A stretch of DNA of 23,297 nt from IMG/VR virus record IMGVR_UViG_3300025585_000173, positions 1 to 23,297 of that record, one strand, 5' to 3'. The stretch comes from a virus. This document shows, piece by piece, positions 9,169-19,977 of the stretch (position 1 is its first letter; each line of letters starts with the position of its first letter). The notes beneath the pieces were generated by a model. It saw nothing but the letters and a program-made list of their open reading frames with translations, was not told the DNA's origin and made no database searches. Made by a program: the position numbers and the translations under genes.

Positions 9169-9726
9169 CTACTCAACTTCGTTCTTGTGGATACGCTCTG
9201 CACGTGCGGTGGGTTTTTCCACTTCTGTGTTAGCGATAACCCAAATGAACAGTAATTGCTGTTCTACATGACGAATGAATTGGTTTCGTGCCAAGAGCCC
9301 GATAGCAAGTGGGTCGAGTGGGCTTGGCTTGAAGTCCAGCTGCATTGCAGGTTTATCTGGGTCTTCGAGTAAGCCGAGTGCGTGGCGAGTCATTTCGACT
9401 GCACGCTCTTTGTACTCTAACGCTTGCTGGATAGTGTCTCTTGATTGAGAGAACACCATCTGCTCGGCACCGAGCCATACATCCTGCACCTGCCCAATCT
9501 TTGACGTGCGGTCAAGTGCTGGGGCGAGGCGACGGGAGAATATAGCCCGAAGCTCTGGGTTCTGAAACACGGTCCTAATCTGCTCGCGCTCTGCTGGGGT
9601 TGTTTCTAACCCAAAAAACAGTGCGCGGATGGACTGAAGAAAACCCTCATTGTCTTTGAAGGTTACTTGCAACAGGTCTTTTTCTTCTTCAGAAAGGTTG
9701 ACCCGCTGTTCTTGTGGTTCCGCCAT
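9169..9726 (-). CDS. Hypothetical helical protein between portal and scaffold
   Basis: 185 residues, almost entirely helical and charged (SEEEKDLLQVTF, then TPAEREQIRTVFQNPELRAIFSRRL, then QQALEYKERAVEMTRHALGLL). No membrane span or catalytic motif is seen. It begins inside the end of the portal gene, with a 38-nt overlap, so the two are coupled. Genes at this place in short-tailed phages can be capsid accessory, portal-partner or maturation proteins, but I do not recognise this one. The last gene of its transcript segment ends 15 nt before the scaffold promoter. Confidence 0.6.
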   Translation of the reverse strand: MAEPQEQRVNLSEEEKDLLQVTFKDNEGFLQSIRALFFGLETTPAEREQIRTVFQNPELRAIFSRRLAPALDRTSKIGQVQDVWLGAEQMVFSQSRDTIQQALEYKERAVEMTRHALGLLEDPDKPAMQLDFKPSPLDPLAIGLLARNQFIRHVEQQLLFIWVIANTEVEKPTARAERIHKNEVE

Positions 9727-11572
9727 TTGGTAATACTAGGTCTTGTAAACCACCTGCCGTCGAATCAACAGGGGCGGGCATCGCACTGGGAATAGCGAAG
9801 TATTCCACTGGTGACATAGTACCCGTCAATTCAAGTATGCGCCCGACAATCGCTTGGGCGCGTTTATTCTGCTCAAAGCCTGGTGTAACCACCAACTTAA
9901 GCGCGGTATTAAGGGTCGTGAGTGCTTCTTGTGCGTTATGTGACTCTCCTGTGATGTCGATTTCTACTTCCCATTCAAGGTCTTTAAACTGTTCTTTCCA
10001 GTTTACCTCGTCAGGACTAAAGAATCTCTGGTTGCCAAGAGGTGAAAGTGTTTCCTTCACTTGCGCAGCGTTCTCTTGTAGCATCTGCGCCTGTTCCTCT
10101 GGTTGTACAATACCTCTTTCTGGATTAGGACCGAATAGGTCAGTGTTGATGATACGGTCTACCATTAAGGAGTTAGTCTTCTTCACTGCCATGTTCTTGA
10201 TGTAGCGTGGGTCAATCTTGTCTATCTCGTGCTGTTCAAGTGTTGCGCCAATTTCATCTGCACCATTGAGCTTAGTACGCTTGATGTACGGAATAATGCG
10301 CTCACGTAGCATGTCCTCAATGTGTAGACCTTTGTTCTCAGTCATTACCTCAAATAGTGAGTATGACTCTTGGAGTAATGCTTCGGTCTGTCTCCATGCT
10401 GTACCAGACTTAGGTTGTGCGCCAAGCATAGCTTCTGACACTCCCACAATCTCATTACCAAGCATCTTCCACTGCTGTGAGTAGTTCTGCCACTCAACTA
10501 CTGAGTGTGGTGCGTTGTTTACCTGAGTTAATGGCTGATTAGGCGCGTGGAAGAATACATCACCTGTATCAAAGTCCTGTAGTACATTCTTAGCTGCGAA
10601 GGCTTGGTCAGACGTCTGGAATAGTAGCTTACTTGCTAGGTCGAGTGAGTCCTTAACCGCTTTCATAGAGTGGTTGGTCATCCACTGTGCCTCAAACAAG
10701 TGCTCTATTGCGCCGATACCAAGTGTGCGATTAGGCTCTTTTATCAAGTGCGTAATCATGTAAGGGTCGTACTTCTCACGTCCTGAGAATAGGGTGAAGT
10801 CCTTATACTCTGTCTTCCTGCCTTTCTTAAGGCCGACAAATGATATGACGTGCATTTGCTGAACGTATGTATCTTCGTCGCTTTCCTTTTGCGTGATGAA
10901 TGAAAGTGGGAGTTTACCGTGTACTTCGTACAGCTTGATGTAACCTGTCTTGTTGTCCTTGCGCTGACCGTCTAGTGTCTCTCGGGTAGTCTGATTGTCA
11001 CAGAGTTCTTCTACCGCCTCGGCGTCATAGCCATGTGTCTCAATACGCGAATAGAGCTGAGCTTCTGTAAGCTCAAGTATCTCTACCTTGATATTGTTGT
11101 CAAAGTCTACAGGGTCGCAGATAATAACACCCCACGGCACTACTGAAATATGTAGCCCGCTAGAGTTCTCTACGAACTTAACGACTGCTGAGCCATACGC
11201 CGCAAGGTAACGTCCCCATTCATTGAGGAACTGTCCGAATCGCTCTCGTACCATCCAGTCACGTAGGTGTACGGTAGCAAGGAATGAGTCCATCCAGTCC
11301 TTCGCCTTTAGCGCACGAATCTTGATGTGCTTTCGGTCAATATCTGTGGCTCTATACCAAACGTTTACTGCCGCAGTTGATATATTGAAAAATGGTTTCT
11401 TTCTGTCCTTTGCGTCCTTCTGACCAGTAATGTGCTTAGAGTTTCTGTATGCGTCTATCTTCTCAAGCGTTTCGTGCATCTGAAAAGACACATGCTTTGA
11501 GATTTGTGTAGTGCCACGTAGATAATCGTCTTCAACACGGCGGACTAATTCGCCGATGGATTCATCCTGCAT
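9689..11572 (-). CDS. Portal protein
   Basis: 627 residues from the ATG at 11572. A GTG at 11578 would add two residues. The length fits large portals of short-tailed phages. The N-terminal part is helical (MQDESIGELVRRVEDDYLRG). Then comes a mixed wing region with conserved-looking aromatics (FFNISTAAVNVWYRATDID and GSAVVKFVENSSGLHISVV), a long stem-like segment near residues 300-400 with Gln/Asn-rich stretches, and the WRQTEALLQESYSLFEVMTE helix near 405 that suits the portal crown/stem junction. It forms the dodecameric ring through which DNA enters and leaves the head. It lies 3' of the large terminase, the standard order. An extended -10 box ends 8 nt before its ATG. Confidence 0.8.
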   Translation of the reverse strand: MQDESIGELVRRVEDDYLRGTTQISKHVSFQMHETLEKIDAYRNSKHITGQKDAKDRKKPFFNISTAAVNVWYRATDIDRKHIKIRALKAKDWMDSFLATVHLRDWMVRERFGQFLNEWGRYLAAYGSAVVKFVENSSGLHISVVPWGVIICDPVDFDNNIKVEILELTEAQLYSRIETHGYDAEAVEELCDNQTTRETLDGQRKDNKTGYIKLYEVHGKLPLSFITQKESDEDTYVQQMHVISFVGLKKGRKTEYKDFTLFSGREKYDPYMITHLIKEPNRTLGIGAIEHLFEAQWMTNHSMKAVKDSLDLASKLLFQTSDQAFAAKNVLQDFDTGDVFFHAPNQPLTQVNNAPHSVVEWQNYSQQWKMLGNEIVGVSEAMLGAQPKSGTAWRQTEALLQESYSLFEVMTENKGLHIEDMLRERIIPYIKRTKLNGADEIGATLEQHEIDKIDPRYIKNMAVKKTNSLMVDRIINTDLFGPNPERGIVQPEEQAQMLQENAAQVKETLSPLGNQRFFSPDEVNWKEQFKDLEWEVEIDITGESHNAQEALTTLNTALKLVVTPGFEQNKRAQAIVGRILELTGTMSPVEYFAIPSAMPAPVDSTAGGLQDLVLPNGGTTRTAGQPF

Positions 11573-11580
11573 TACCACAC

Positions 11581-11597: not shown

Positions 11598-13052
11598 TTA
11601 TTCTGCTGAATTTTGACCCTGTGTATTACGGTTCCTCAAAACCAAGCTGTGCATCTCGTCCTGAGTGCGTTTTGACGTGGTGTCTGAGATACCATGAGCA
11701 TCCTTAACCAACTCAAACCACACGCGCATGAGAATGGTGTCGCCTACGTCTGGGGAGTGGCCTATGGTAATCTTCACATCCTCCTTAGACTTGAGACGCT
11801 TTCTCCCTTCACCGTCTGGTTGGTGGTCTCGCAGCATTGCGGTGAGGTCTTCGATTATCTCATCGCGGTAGTCAGGTACCTTAAATGCGATTCTCCTTTC
11901 GTTGATGAGTTCGGCTAGCTTCCACCCGCACTGGGCTTTGACGTTTGAGAAGGTGGTCTTGGGCACAAGGAAGTGGTCGGCTTTGGACTGTCGCTCGCGT
12001 ACCTGTTGGAGTGTGGGTATGGCAGTCGAGTTAGCAGTAAAGCCTTTCACGCCCCACAGCCCGTCTACCACCGCACCACCTATGCCATCCTCGTCCACCA
12101 GGATGTTTGAGTAGGGGATGCGTTCACTTGCAGCGTGGTCTTTGAGTAGCTGGATAATCTTATCGGTAGGTAGTTTTGTGTATTTAATAACATCATAGAG
12201 TTCTAGCCCATGCCAAGATGCAAAGACTGTGCTGTCATCCCCAAGTCGCGCTACGTCTACAGTTAAGTAATTTGCAGGCTCGATGGTAATGGTGTTCGAG
12301 AACGTGTCAGTGAGCGCGTCGAAAGTAATCAAGCTGTCCTGGTCCTCGTCGTAATCCCAGTTCCCTTCCCAGAGACGTTGCCTGCGGACATTGTCTTTTT
12401 CTGAGCGTAGTGTTTCCACGTAGTCACTGGGTAGATAGGTGTTGTCTGTAGCAAACGCCTGTACGTACTTGCGACCTGGGGCCAACACGCCACGTTTTGC
12501 TGGGTCTACAAAGTCTCGTTTCATCCAACCCTTCTTGGGGTTTGCGGTGATGAGCAGTTTCTTTTTGAGTCCGTATATGTCATTCTTCCATCGTCCTATC
12601 GAAAGCCATAGGTTAGACTTGGCGGCCTCTGCGATCTCACCTCCCTCTTCAATCCATCCACGTGTCATTTGCATAGAACCAAAGCGTTCAAACAGTGGGT
12701 CTGACGGTTCTTCTTTACACGCAATAAGAAACACCTTACTGCCATTGGTTAGGTTGAAACAGTTATCCTGTCCGTTATACGAAGCATAGTCGTCTAGTTT
12801 TAGTCCCCAGTTACTAAACACTTCATGGACAGTTGGAATAGTGAACTTACGGAGGTCTATGAGCTCTTTACGAGCAATGAAGTAGTGAGTGCCTGGGTAT
12901 ATGAGAGCATCGCCAAAGATTAGGGATGCACCGAGGTATGACTTACCACCTCCTTTAGCACCGCCGTATAGTATCTCCTCGGTAGATTCATCTACCCAGA
13001 ATGTAGCGGCGTCAATCTGCTTTTGGTTCCTCGTTTTGAACTCTAGTTCCAT
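11598..13052 (-). CDS. terL: Terminase large subunit (packaging ATPase and nuclease)
   Basis: 484 residues. The Walker A loop GGAKGGGKS is at 30-38 and the Walker B-like GWIEEGGE is near 132-139. A coupling motif, LLITANP, is at 166-172. The RNase-H-like nuclease domain follows: first acidic D266 in TVDVARLGDD, second in LVDEDGIGG at 319-326, third in HSPDVGDTI at about 432-440. All expected catalytic acids are present. The enzyme translocates DNA into the prohead through the portal and cuts concatemers. It overlaps the preceding 68-residue gene by 41 nt and lies directly before the portal. An AGGAGG string is found 15 nt before the ATG, too far for a good Shine-Dalgarno site and inside the upstream gene. 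Confidence 0.95.
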   Translation of the reverse strand: MELEFKTRNQKQIDAATFWVDESTEEILYGGAKGGGKSYLGASLIFGDALIYPGTHYFIARKELIDLRKFTIPTVHEVFSNWGLKLDDYASYNGQDNCFNLTNGSKVFLIACKEEPSDPLFERFGSMQMTRGWIEEGGEIAEAAKSNLWLSIGRWKNDIYGLKKKLLITANPKKGWMKRDFVDPAKRGVLAPGRKYVQAFATDNTYLPSDYVETLRSEKDNVRRQRLWEGNWDYDEDQDSLITFDALTDTFSNTITIEPANYLTVDVARLGDDSTVFASWHGLELYDVIKYTKLPTDKIIQLLKDHAASERIPYSNILVDEDGIGGAVVDGLWGVKGFTANSTAIPTLQQVRERQSKADHFLVPKTTFSNVKAQCGWKLAELINERRIAFKVPDYRDEIIEDLTAMLRDHQPDGEGRKRLKSKEDVKITIGHSPDVGDTILMRVWFELVKDAHGISDTTSKRTQDEMHSLVLRNRNTQGQNSAE

Positions 13053-16619: not shown

Positions 16620-17870
16620 TTAGAACATTGGGCTGTCTACTGCATCTATACGCGCTCGTGCTATCTCTACATATTCTGCTTCACGTTCTATGCCTATGAA
16701 ATTAAATCCTTCTAGTTTCGCTGCTTTACCTGTTGAGCCTGAACCCATGAAAGGGTCTAAAACTATCCCGCCTTTAGGTGTTACTAGACGACAGAGGTAG
16801 CGCATGAGGTCGGTGGGTTTGACTGTTGGATGAGAATTTCTAACAGTTGCTCCGTTCTTACTACTTTCAGTACTTCCCGAATTATGAGCAAATTCCCCGC
16901 CAGAGTGACGGCGAATTTGCTTTGCCTCAAACCCCTCCAGTCCCTCATCCCTATCCTTCTTGCTTGCCTTCGCACAGTAGAAAAAGCGGGCGGCGGAGCC
17001 TGAGTCTGAGTATGTATTATCACTATTCCAAATAGACCCACCAGCAACAAAGGCATTAGGTTTTGTATTACTGTTTACTTTTGGATTGCTTTTATTTTCA
17101 GGAAACAACCCCACCACCTCCTCACTCCCGTCGTGTATGAGGTTGGCGGGGAAGCGGCCAGCTGGTTGTTCATACAGTCCCTCTTGTCTTTTAAGGCCAA
17201 GTTCTAGTACCTTTCCATCAGTGTCGTACTCACCTTTAGAGTATGCTCCCCCATTTAAGTTATCAGAGGTTTCCACCCTACACCCATCTATATTTATCCC
17301 CCCAGTACCATGCGTCAGTACGTTTTCAGCTACAGTTCCTGTTAGAGGTTTACGGGCTACTGTGATGGGTTCTAGTGCGGGTTTGAGGGCGGTTCCCCAG
17401 CCTTCCCACTGTTTGGCGGCTTCGGTCACTGGTTTAGAAATGTCGGTCATACCATTAGCACCAAGAGCAATATCGCCAGCCTGGTCGGGGTGGTTGCCAG
17501 CTTTGGTTGGCACCATTACTTTTTCTCTTTCTGCCCCTGCCGCCTTGTCGATAGCCTTGCCGATGTTGAGAGACTTAGGAAACCCCGAACCATACACCCA
17601 AGCAATCATATCCCTAATTTCAAACCCTGCGTCTTCGATGCGTACAGCCATGCGGTGTTGAGTGCGGGTTCCTGCAAAGGCGAGAAGGTGCCCGCCTGGT
17701 TTTAGTACACGCAAACACTCACGCCAGACTTCTTCACTTGGTACATCGTAGTCCCACTTCTTTCCCATAAATGAAAGACCATATGGAGGGTCAGTCACGA
17801 TAGAGTCTACGCTGTTATCGTCAAGCTTCTTTAGTTCTTCGAGGCAGTCTCCGTGTATGAGGTTATTCAT
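16620..17870 (-). CDS. DNA methyltransferase, beta class (N6-adenine or N4-cytosine)
   Basis: 416 residues. The catalytic motif VTDPPYGLSF is at 25-34. The AdoMet-binding motif LDPFMGSGSTGKAA comes near the C terminus at about 376-389, after HPTVKPTDLM. Catalytic motif first and AdoMet motif last is the beta-class order. The long middle part (residues 110-330) would hold the target-recognition region and is rich in Gly, Asn and Ser. The enzyme probably modifies phage DNA to block host restriction; no cognate restriction endonuclease was seen. It is the first gene of the long minus operon after the non-coding island. No Shine-Dalgarno sequence is present, and a TAAAGT string close to the ATG is a weak promoter candidate. 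Confidence 0.9.
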   Translation of the reverse strand: MNNLIHGDCLEELKKLDDNSVDSIVTDPPYGLSFMGKKWDYDVPSEEVWRECLRVLKPGGHLLAFAGTRTQHRMAVRIEDAGFEIRDMIAWVYGSGFPKSLNIGKAIDKAAGAEREKVMVPTKAGNHPDQAGDIALGANGMTDISKPVTEAAKQWEGWGTALKPALEPITVARKPLTGTVAENVLTHGTGGINIDGCRVETSDNLNGGAYSKGEYDTDGKVLELGLKRQEGLYEQPAGRFPANLIHDGSEEVVGLFPENKSNPKVNSNTKPNAFVAGGSIWNSDNTYSDSGSAARFFYCAKASKKDRDEGLEGFEAKQIRRHSGGEFAHNSGSTESSKNGATVRNSHPTVKPTDLMRYLCRLVTPKGGIVLDPFMGSGSTGKAAKLEGFNFIGIEREAEYVEIARARIDAVDSPMF

Positions 17871-17946
17871 CTACTTTATTTGTTTTTAAATATTTTGTCC
17901 AAGTATGTCCCCGCTTCCGATATACCGTATCGTTGCTAGTAGTTTC

Positions 17947-17952
17947 TATAAT
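17947..17952 (+). promoter_or_regulatory. Possible -10 box (TATAAT) for a plus-strand RNA
   Basis: A perfect TATAAT on the plus strand lies about 40 nt before the first hairpin of the structured region. No convincing -35 is seen. A second candidate, TAGAAT at 17979-17984, would start transcription just before that hairpin. Confidence 0.3.
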
Positions 17953-17989
17953 CACAAGATAATTAACAGTAGTTAGCATAGAATATCCA

Positions 17990-18170
17990 GTATCTTACAT
18001 TCCGAGATGTAAGCTCTCGCCCTCCGAGGGGCAACCAATATCGACATAGCGTACATTATTGTTCGACGCAATAGCGAGCTATGATTAGTTGCCTTTCGGA
18101 AGGGAGGTGCGCCTGTATGCCTTTAGTGAGCGTTTTTCTTTGGTCGTGCCCCCTAGATGACCTTTTTCTT
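17990..18170 (+). ncRNA. Candidate structured small RNA, plus strand preferred
   Basis: This non-coding stretch has a run of hairpins. Arms CTTACAT/ATGTAAG (17994-18013) and GCCC/GGGC (18019-18032) both close the same loop, TCCGAG. A long stem pairs GGCAAC (18030) with GTTGCC (18093) and CATAGC (18045) with GCTATG (18083). Inside it TATTG/CAATA close a 7-nt loop TTCGACG (18057-18073). A hairpin at 18092-18103 shows TTCGGA, complementary to the TCCGAG loops, so loop-loop pairing is possible. Neighbouring stems share bases and must be alternatives. A terminator with a U tract follows on the plus strand. One long stem pairs slightly better on the minus strand, so the strand is not settled. Confidence 0.45.
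18142..18167 (+). terminator. Intrinsic terminator, plus strand
   Basis: GGTCGT and ATGACC pair (one G-U) across a 9-nt loop and are followed directly by TTTTT. On the minus strand the G-U pair becomes an A-C mismatch and no U run follows, so the signal is directional. Confidence 0.5.
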
Positions 18171-18193
18171 GTGATGTCTAAGAACTAAATACG

Positions 18194-18218
18194 AGAAAAC
18201 CACGCTGTTTATGCGTGG
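18194..18218 (-). terminator. Intrinsic terminator, minus strand
   Basis: CCACGC and GCGTGG pair perfectly across a 7-nt loop and are followed by TTTTCTC on the minus strand. The loop contains the stop codon of the overlapping 32-codon frame. It faces the plus-strand terminator at 18142-18167 across 26 bp. Confidence 0.55.
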
Positions 18219-18307
18219 GTATCAAGTACTTTGTGCGGAGCGCGGCATTCTTGGGCAAGAACACGCGCCACGCTACGCACGGAAAACTCGATTGTGAACT
18301 TGCCCAT
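18209..18307 (-). CDS. Possible 32-residue leaderless peptide
   Basis: The ATG at 18307 lies 6 nt after a -10 box, the same geometry as the gene at 16266. The 32 residues (MGKFTIEFSVRSVARVLAQE and on) include a basic amphipathic stretch. Nearly the whole frame lies in strong RNA hairpins, so the peptide may be an accident of a small RNA. I give the RNA reading more weight. Confidence 0.25.
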   Translation of the reverse strand: MGKFTIEFSVRSVARVLAQECRAPHKVLDTHA

Positions 18308-18313
18308 GCAGGA

Positions 18314-18321
18314 ATTATACC
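18314..18321 (-). promoter_or_regulatory. -10 promoter (GGTATAAT) of the minus small RNA unit
   Basis: GGTATAAT on the minus strand sits in the gap after the zinc-ribbon gene. A weak -35-like TTGAGC occurs 19 nt upstream. Six bases separate the box from the ATG at 18307. Confidence 0.55.
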
Positions 18322-18327
18322 CCACCT

Positions 18328-18651
18328 TTAATCTGCACGCTCAATCGCGCTGTGGAAATCTTTTTCGTGCTGGCCCCGGGCCTTAGCCGCGAATAGCTTC
18401 TCTGACGATATAACGAAACTCTTTCTATGTGTCTTACTCTTGCACCTAAAGTACTTACCCTCTTTCATCACGTACAGGGTATGACCACAGAACGGACACA
18501 AGCCTTGGTTTAAGTTTGACCAGTCTACAAAAAGTGACGGGGCGTTGAGTATCTTAAAGTCTTTCTTGCGTAGTTTTTTGGGTAACAAGGAGCCGATTGG
18601 CTTTCCACCAATAACGTATGTTCGGTTGAATATATCAGAAATAGGCTTCAT
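18328..18651 (-). CDS. Zinc-ribbon protein of the regulatory cluster
   Basis: 107 residues. CPFCGHTLY near residues 52-60 is followed about 14 residues later by YFRCKSKTHRK, so three Cys plus a His can form a zinc ribbon. The N-terminal part is basic (LLPKKLRKKDF) and the C terminus is charged and helical. It starts with an ATGA overlap after the winged-helix gene. A nucleic-acid-binding role is likely from composition; no specific family is recognised. Confidence 0.6.
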   Translation of the reverse strand: MKPISDIFNRTYVIGGKPIGSLLPKKLRKKDFKILNAPSLFVDWSNLNQGLCPFCGHTLYVMKEGKYFRCKSKTHRKSFVISSEKLFAAKARGQHEKDFHSAIERAD

Positions 18652-19449: not shown

Positions 19450-19592
19450 TAGGGCAACGGCGAGGCAGTACAGACTTCGGTCACACTTCCTCCACCGCCA
19501 GTTCTACAGGGTAGAGATAGAAAGGGCGACGGGGAGTGTGGCACAACTGAAACTCACTCCCTCCGAAGCCCATTACAAACTAAAAGAAAAAC
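19450..19592 (+). other. Long structured leader of the rightward arm
   Basis: About 140 nt without a convincing gene. GGGAGTG (19532-19538) pairs with CACTCCC (19555-19561), and CTTCGG (19475-19480) can pair with CCGAAG (19563-19568) just outside it. No terminator U tract follows. A GTG-started frame from 19433 crosses the region but begins upstream of the expected transcript start. Confidence 0.35.
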
Positions 19593-19757
19593 ATGCAAGA
19601 CTTCACCACACGCGCACAAAGAATGAAAAGACTTCCTGAAGTAAAGTTCTCGGACTATCTTAAACCGTTAGGCTACGCGCTCGTCGCGGTTCCTGTACTA
19701 TACGTGTTTATGTTCTTGTACTACGTGATCGCTAATGTACTTGTGGGGATTATATGA
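19593..19757 (+). CDS. Small single-span membrane protein, 54 residues
   Basis: The ATG at 19593 opens a frame that ends in an ATGA overlap with the next gene. Residues 1-24 are basic and polar (RAQRMKRLPEVKFSD), followed by a hydrophobic helix at about 27-50 (ALVAVPVLYVFMFLYYVIAN). Positive residues before the span suggest the N terminus stays in the cytoplasm. First gene of the rightward arm. No family is recognised. Confidence 0.6.
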   Translation: MQDFTTRAQRMKRLPEVKFSDYLKPLGYALVAVPVLYVFMFLYYVIANVLVGII

Positions 19758-19891
19758 AATTCGCTACAACAGCAAAAGAGATACAAGCAGCGTGTAAGGC
19801 TGGACTCACACTCATAGAAGAAAACGGGCATGGAGGGTGGATGGGTACTAACGAACAGTGGGCAGTCTTTACTAAACTTATTTATCCTTAA
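19754..19891 (+). CDS. Small soluble protein, 45 residues
   Basis: Starts in the ATGA overlap with the membrane protein gene. The first half is helical (KFATTAKEIQAACKAGLTLIEE) and is followed by a Gly-rich turn (NGHGGWMGTNEQW) and a short ending. Codon use and overlap support translation. The function is unknown. Confidence 0.55.
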   Translation: MKFATTAKEIQAACKAGLTLIEENGHGGWMGTNEQWAVFTKLIYP

Positions 19892-19893
19892 TT

Positions 19894-19977
19894 ATGTCAT
19901 CACCAAATCCTAGCCAGCCAGAAGAAGAGTACGGAAACCCCGAAGTACCAGAAGTAGAACAAGAAAATGACGACTAA
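19894..19977 (+). CDS. Tiny acidic protein, 27 residues
   Basis: The ATG at 19894 lies two bases after the previous stop, and the frame overlaps the exonuclease start by 11 nt. The product is Pro/Glu-rich and strongly acidic (PSQPEEEYGNPEVPEVEQEN), which suggests a disordered peptide or a coupling leader for the exonuclease. The evidence for it as a functional peptide is spacing only. Confidence 0.4.
   Translation: MSSPNPSQPEEEYGNPEVPEVEQENDD

Follow-up and report, generated by a model that had tools for sequence, protein, structure and literature searches.

In the window – the whole stretch of DNA analysed, a viral record of 23,297 bases – genes are read leftward as far as the left end, beginning at about 19544, and rightward from 19593. 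Among the leftward genes a gap of 457 nt separates a 107-aa gene (18328-18651) from a DNA methylase gene (16620-17870), the latter recognised by its match to Pfam N6_N4_Mtase; genes for the large terminase and a head-tail connector-like protein lie farther left (Table 1). A homologue search with the 107-aa protein returned none, and its zinc-ribbon matches are weak and all below cut-off. The methylase gene contains the strongest fold of the minus strand (16801-16950, minus; z -6.0). An earlier note on this DNA had singled out the gap as the only one of such size and as a non-coding island with two converging small RNA candidates. On size the note was right: the gap of 422 nt at 19545-19966 contains gene-like small frames, and the 457-nt gap is the largest without them. 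The label "non-coding" is accurate insofar as the gap holds no ORF of at least 60 aa, but it is incomplete, because a leaderless frame of 32 codons occupies the minus-strand unit.

Table 1. Features of the gap and genes farther left (window coordinates)
Feature	Position	Strand	Remarks
Promoter (-10) box GGTATAAT	18314..18321	minus	predicted +1 at 18306-18308
Strand A, putative RNA 5' end TGGGCAAG	18299..18306	minus	covers U and G of the start codon; complementary to own loop; covaries in relatives
Leaderless frame MGKFTIEFSVRSVARVLAQECRAPHKVLDTHA	18209..18307	minus	ATG 18305-18307, 32 codons, stop TAA 18209-18211; codon score weak
Long hairpin	18221..18292 (arms 18267-18292 and 18221-18246)	minus	conserved in L102 and L132; model match; z -5.3
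Strand A' CTTGCCCA	18252..18259	minus	apical loop; pairs with A
Intrinsic terminator	18196..18218 (hairpin 18200-18218 and TTTT)	minus	stop codon of the frame in its loop
Second foldable region	17990..18112	not established	z -4.4 plus, -4.8 minus; no homologue found
Possible 38-aa frame	17863..17979	minus	downstream of the unit; 8-nt overlap with methylase start; codon score ambiguous
Large terminase	11598-13052		farther left than methylase
Head-tail connector-like protein	9689-11578		farther left than methylase

The minus-strand arrangement described in the earlier note – a box, a long hairpin and a terminator – is a real unit, extending over 18194-18321: the box is of an enriched kind and the hairpin is conserved in two relatives. 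Five copies of GGTATAAT occur in the window against 0.62 expected, a number reached in none of 100 shuffles, and all five are on the minus strand. Three of them have the extended form TGGTATAAT; the box at 18314 is without the TG of that form and its -35 region is poor. An ATG follows 6-9 nt downstream in four of the five copies, namely at the genes starting at 1057, 11572 and 16266 and at the ATG in the gap (18307). The boxes outside the gap stand at 1067, 9146, 11581 and 16273 (minus), and three of these lie 6-9 nt before a gene ATG. Leaderless genes have no 5' untranslated region. The spacing from box to ATG, taken with the scarcity of Shine-Dalgarno sequences – absent, as judged by eye, from most genes of this phage – suggests that the genes behind GGTATAAT boxes are probably leaderless and that leaderless genes are probably numerous in this phage. 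The 18314 box fits in with them, its ATG lying where +1 is expected. Relatives of the 8523-9113 gene are repeatedly preceded by a promoter of the form TGNTATAAT (L092 3333, L133 3817, L134 11417, L130 4772, L132 14338, L128 13933; 9146 in the window). Distant terminase relatives are found mostly in Bacteroidetes, and the Bacteroidetes-type promoter TTTG-TANNTTTG occurs once in the window against 0.4 expected.

Folded on the minus strand, 18220-18293 reaches -34.1 kcal/mol (z -5.3), a value matched by none of 200 shuffles. The adjoining stretch, 18194-18220, forms a terminator-like hairpin on the same strand: its stem at 18200-18218 has 6 bp and -9.9 kcal/mol and is followed by TTTTCTCG, the U tract being short. 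A whole-window scan showed that the gap is matched in folding by several coding stretches (16801-16950 reaches z -6.0), while terminator-like patterns number 18 across the window against 15.6 by chance, which is no excess. Folding alone is therefore no proof, and it is the comparative evidence that carries the argument. The Rfam scan proposed in the earlier note gave no family at the gathering threshold of Rfam 15, either in the window or in five relatives, and relaxed thresholds likewise gave nothing meaningful; the structure is absent from Rfam.

Relatives of the phage were fetched by their terminase, their exonuclease and a conserved 283-aa protein whose position makes it the probable major capsid protein. 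Searched by BLAST against phages, plasmids and the fetched loci, the gap returned chance matches only, and a 20-mer scan across viral contigs found nothing; a gapped-pattern search returned the L102 contig again along with chance matches, and two terminase relatives identical to the window (L082 and L083) stop short of the gap. The first candidates were stretches following a TATAAT box in gaps, and in two of these, L132 (+6622) and L127 (+2878), the 5' strand and the loop of a hairpin are complementary. The same pair of strands is present in the window, and a scan for it then added L102 (-4963) and L128 (-7663). The window and L102 share GTAGCGTGGCGC; L102 and L132 share ATATTTTCACAG. The stem of L128 aligns poorly with these three, which are the only members alignable by sequence.

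Compensatory base changes, for which the earlier note had looked to homologous contigs, are present in these relatives. The hairpins of the window, L102 and L132 align in a single register of 26 bp, in which 12 of the 26 pairs have changed on both sides. So few sequences, three or four, give small counts, yet the contrast with slid registers is large: 84.6% of cells pair in the true register, against 28-49% when the alignment of the three sequences is slid by one to three columns. Nor did any of 500 shuffles reach the covariation score of the hairpin, again computed on three sequences. A model built from L102 and L132 alone and run unfiltered on the window placed its top match at 18220-18307 (minus), at full length and with 19.9 bits (E 0.027), the runner-up scoring 10.9 bits. 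Under default filters this leave-one-out model missed the window in a search of 1.24 Mb, and covariance model R1 found no further member across 2.4 Mb. A combined scan of all loci yielded three independent real matches at -40 or below (the window, L102 and L132) against 0-1 per shuffle. Within the clade, an energy scan for the layout gave eight real matches against one shuffled at -40 kcal/mol and, with a promoter in front, seven rows against none, duplicate loci being counted; unrestricted energy scans for the layout were swamped by G+C-rich loci. Our data thus indicate that the minus-strand unit is very probably a conserved RNA element.

A further property of the element is the pairing between its 5' end and its loop. 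In the window, L102 and L132 alike, the first 8-12 nt of the predicted RNA (8 in the window) are complementary to the RNA's own apical loop. With L128 included, a helix of seven such pairs is intact in four of four, three of the pairs being doubly changed, and a cross-comparison showed that each 5' end finds its best pairing partner in its own loop. Loop pairing had helped to pick some of the members and was therefore retested on sets chosen without it, the unfiltered run of the L102/L132 model on the window being the first such test. For a second, independent test we took all leaderless frames of 20-50 aa lying outside genes in the clade (n=28) and ranked them by folding only. Six – L102, L211, L128, the window, L265 and L132 – have z of -3.4 or lower, a threshold read off afterwards. 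In five of these six the 5' end is complementary to a downstream site, over 9 nt in L102, 6 in L211, 10 in L128, 8 in the window and 10 in L132, the fraction of shuffles with a pairing as good being 0, 0.046, 0, 0.004 and 0, respectively; the exception is the 20-aa frame of L265. Only one of the other 22 frames reaches a pairing of 6 nt. L211 was newly found through this ranking.

The start codon of the frame lies 6 nt past the -10 box in each of the three alignable members (ATG in the window and L102, GTG in L132). The frame spans the whole hairpin, is 32 codons long in the window, 35 in L102 and 37 in L132, and in all three has its stop codon within the hairpin of the terminator (window ...CAC GCA TAA; L102 ...TCG CTT TAA; L132 ...CTC GCT TAA). 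A start at +1 combined with a stop in the terminator hairpin arises in 0.9%, 1.0% and 0.7% of shuffled sequences for the window, L102 and L132, respectively; when no folding criterion is applied, leaderless frames ending in terminator-like hairpins show no enrichment (12 real, 10-17 in shuffles). The 42-codon frame of L128 ends where a primase/helicase gene (Prim-Pol, AAA_25) begins, and the leaderless frame of L211 ends just before a 51-aa frame. Peptides from the several loci have no mutual similarity, and the codons of the window frame are not gene-like, which would suit a leader peptide and also a frame arisen by chance. Together, the unrelated peptides, the stop in the terminator or at the next gene and the non-gene-like codons point to a leader peptide, one for which the act of translating would matter above the product; the tie of the frame to a terminator or to the next gene suggests a leader acting in cis. 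The small RNA that the earlier note saw on this strand thus stands as a conserved structured RNA but not as a simply non-coding one, given a leaderless frame in each of the three members that align and also in L128 and L211, both recovered by a ranking blind to the 5'-end/loop pairing. Two familiar kinds of short frame were tried and rejected: a type I toxin mRNA, the peptide being not strongly hydrophobic (GRAVY -0.43 to 0.47 across the loci, -0.02 in the window) and an antisense unit unsupported; and an amino-acid attenuator of the trp/his or mycobacterial cysteine type, the leader peptides having no run of a single kind of codon that could be regulatory.

The best reading of the minus-strand unit, better than that of a plain small RNA, is as a leaderless leader-peptide attenuator with a start codon maskable by its own loop; we put its probability at about one half. 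Transcription, leaderless translation and control of read-through are what we infer from the sequence, as follows. Transcription would start at or next to the A of AUG, making the 5' end of the RNA itself the start codon; on leaderless mRNAs, 70S ribosomes bind to a start codon located at the 5' end or close to it (PMC9031893). An initiating ribosome would translate the 32 codons, would have to melt the long hairpin in doing so, and would reach the stop in the terminator loop. Its presence there would block the terminator and let transcription continue toward the methylase and the genes beyond. Ribosomes repress terminators near a stop codon almost completely, and in pyrBI the terminator is situated within the leader gene itself (PMC4824070). 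Should initiation fail, hairpin and terminator would form and an RNA of about 110 nt would be released. Pairing of the apical loop with the first 8 nt (more in the relatives) would mask the start codon and so favour termination; it may set, or sense, the loading of ribosomes. Of -33.1 kcal/mol in the window, -25.7 remain when only the upper stem is formed, and the helix of 5' end and loop is worth about -12.6. The masked form probably needs an open lower stem or a second RNA molecule, because a linker of about 6 nt hardly spans 26 bp; this is reasoned geometry, not a computed model. As to the genes downstream, no -10-like site at 17860-18200 in the window is better than 4/6. The next gene in L102 has a TATAAT-N6-ATG start of its own, and read-through is accordingly not needed there.

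Tentatively, the element may be a modular switch used throughout the clade, in which the loop masks a 5'-terminal start codon and ribosome loading determines the transcription of replication or packaging operons; since loop and 5' end covary per phage, incoming phages that are related could be shut off by the finished leader RNA as well. The control of leaderless translation by RNA structure is an open question to which the element would be one answer, its own loop covering the start codon at the 5' end. It would also be a regulator in a phage most of whose genes have no Shine-Dalgarno sequence, built to a short and testable design on a structured RNA that Rfam does not contain.

A terminated small RNA acting in trans, perhaps an immunity RNA like P4 CI, would pair through its loop A' with strand A at the start of transcripts newly made from the same phage, altering their termination or translation, and the frame would be secondary. 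The phage-specific covariation of loop and 5' end is in keeping with such an RNA, as is its possession of a promoter and a terminator; pairing between two molecules is attractive on the inference that a 6-nt linker hardly spans the stem, and P4 CI RNA does pair with leader sequences and cause termination (PMC4825925). What this leaves unexplained is a frame that in three of three starts at +1 and stops in the terminator hairpin; moreover, the 5'-end sequence has no second target above chance within the window, and we regard a trans-acting RNA, the RNA-based exclusion system suggested in the earlier note included, as rather unlikely. A multimer of the phi29 pRNA kind was also considered as a candidate arrangement. 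Alternatively, the frame could encode a tiny phage protein (32-42 aa) whose mRNA is heavily folded, either to make it stable or to delay its translation. Its leaderless start has the geometry of known genes of this phage and frames are present in five loci, but mutually dissimilar peptides, a low codon score in the window and a hairpin conserved across codon changes make a small-protein gene unlikely.

Gene order raises another alternative, namely a late-operon leader of the lambda PR'-6S RNA-tR' kind, in which read-through would depend on an antiterminator protein of the phage or, as with HK022 put, on the RNA. In L102 the unit is followed closely by a 65-aa gene and by those for the small (GP3_package) and large terminases, and the units of L132 and the window are upstream of packaging genes too. 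In L128, however, the same layout stands ahead of a primase/helicase gene, and no antiterminator was identified, the zinc-ribbon matches of the 107-aa protein being weak and below cut-off; we consider such a leader improbable. That the gap is a chance folded intergenic stretch without function would accord with its want of a BLAST homologue and with coding stretches that fold equally, but is very improbable in the face of compensatory changes in one register and of 5'-end/loop pairing in members chosen without it.

Several known systems bear comparison with the attenuator that we favour. Lambda 6S RNA (PR' to tR') and HK022 put RNA are also short promoter-proximal RNAs, and some members of the present family lie upstream of packaging and structural genes; lambda read-through depends on the Q protein, and neither a covarying pseudoknot nor a leader frame is known to be part of the lambda or the HK022 system. 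RydC is likewise a pseudoknotted bacterial RNA with a terminator, but it is much smaller, acts in trans with Hfq and has no frame. With pyrBI-type attenuators (PMC4824070) the unit has in common a promoter, a short leader frame, a terminator overlapping the end of the frame and downstream genes; it differs in its putative leaderless start and in a covarying 5'-end/loop pairing able to mask the start codon, and it has no known sensed nucleotide. Mycobacterial leaderless upstream frames, some with cysteine-dependent attenuation (PMC4633059, PMC9031893), also precede operons as small frames, whereas the phage unit is without a cysteine run and combines a strong hairpin and terminator with unrelated peptides. 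The likeness to P4 CI RNA (PMC4825925) – a phage leader RNA with internal complementary strands (here A and A') around a stable hairpin and a link to termination – is one of organisation, and the P4 leader is described as untranslated, its CI RNA being made by processing, whereas the sequence of the present unit has a leaderless frame.

The converging plus-strand RNA of the earlier note (17994-18167) fared less well, its promoter, terminator and homologues all being unsupported. The supposed terminator at 18142-18167 consists of a 6-bp stem with a 9-nt loop, has -7 kcal/mol and is not reported by the scanner. There is a plus-strand TATAAT at 17947, although such boxes occur at chance level overall (13 against 10.7). 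The run of hairpins at 17994-18103 defines no plus-strand unit, because both strands fold about equally (z -4.4 plus, -4.8 minus); the foldable stretch 17990-18112 may be part of what is transcribed from the minus strand upon read-through. At 18105-18188 (plus) a good Shine-Dalgarno-like GGGAGG precedes an ATG and a 23-aa hydrophobic frame, which is odd for a phage without such sites, and the codon score is unsupportive.

Related arrangements recur at other loci. An A-S-A'-S' layout, its 5' strand complementary to the hairpin loop, following directly on a promoter-like box and without a frame, is found ahead of other genes in L259/L260/L262 (+579), L267 (+9116), L127 (+2878) and L136 (-8077); of these L127, L136, L259 and L267 were considered as members and not counted, the layout being present but no frame. 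A similar layout with a frame of 31-35 codons and a U run is seen in L139 (-354), ahead of a Phage_rep_O gene, and in L084 (-5942), ahead of a 254-aa gene; these two are possible members only, as the promoter spacing differs and in L084 the helix leaves the start codon uncovered. Small hairpins with GGTGGGA in the loop or arm occur at L128 11463 and at L130 2241, in both between the terminase gene and a gene in the portal position, and a GGTGGGA small hairpin is present at L132 15819, after the 283-aa (capsid-like) gene.
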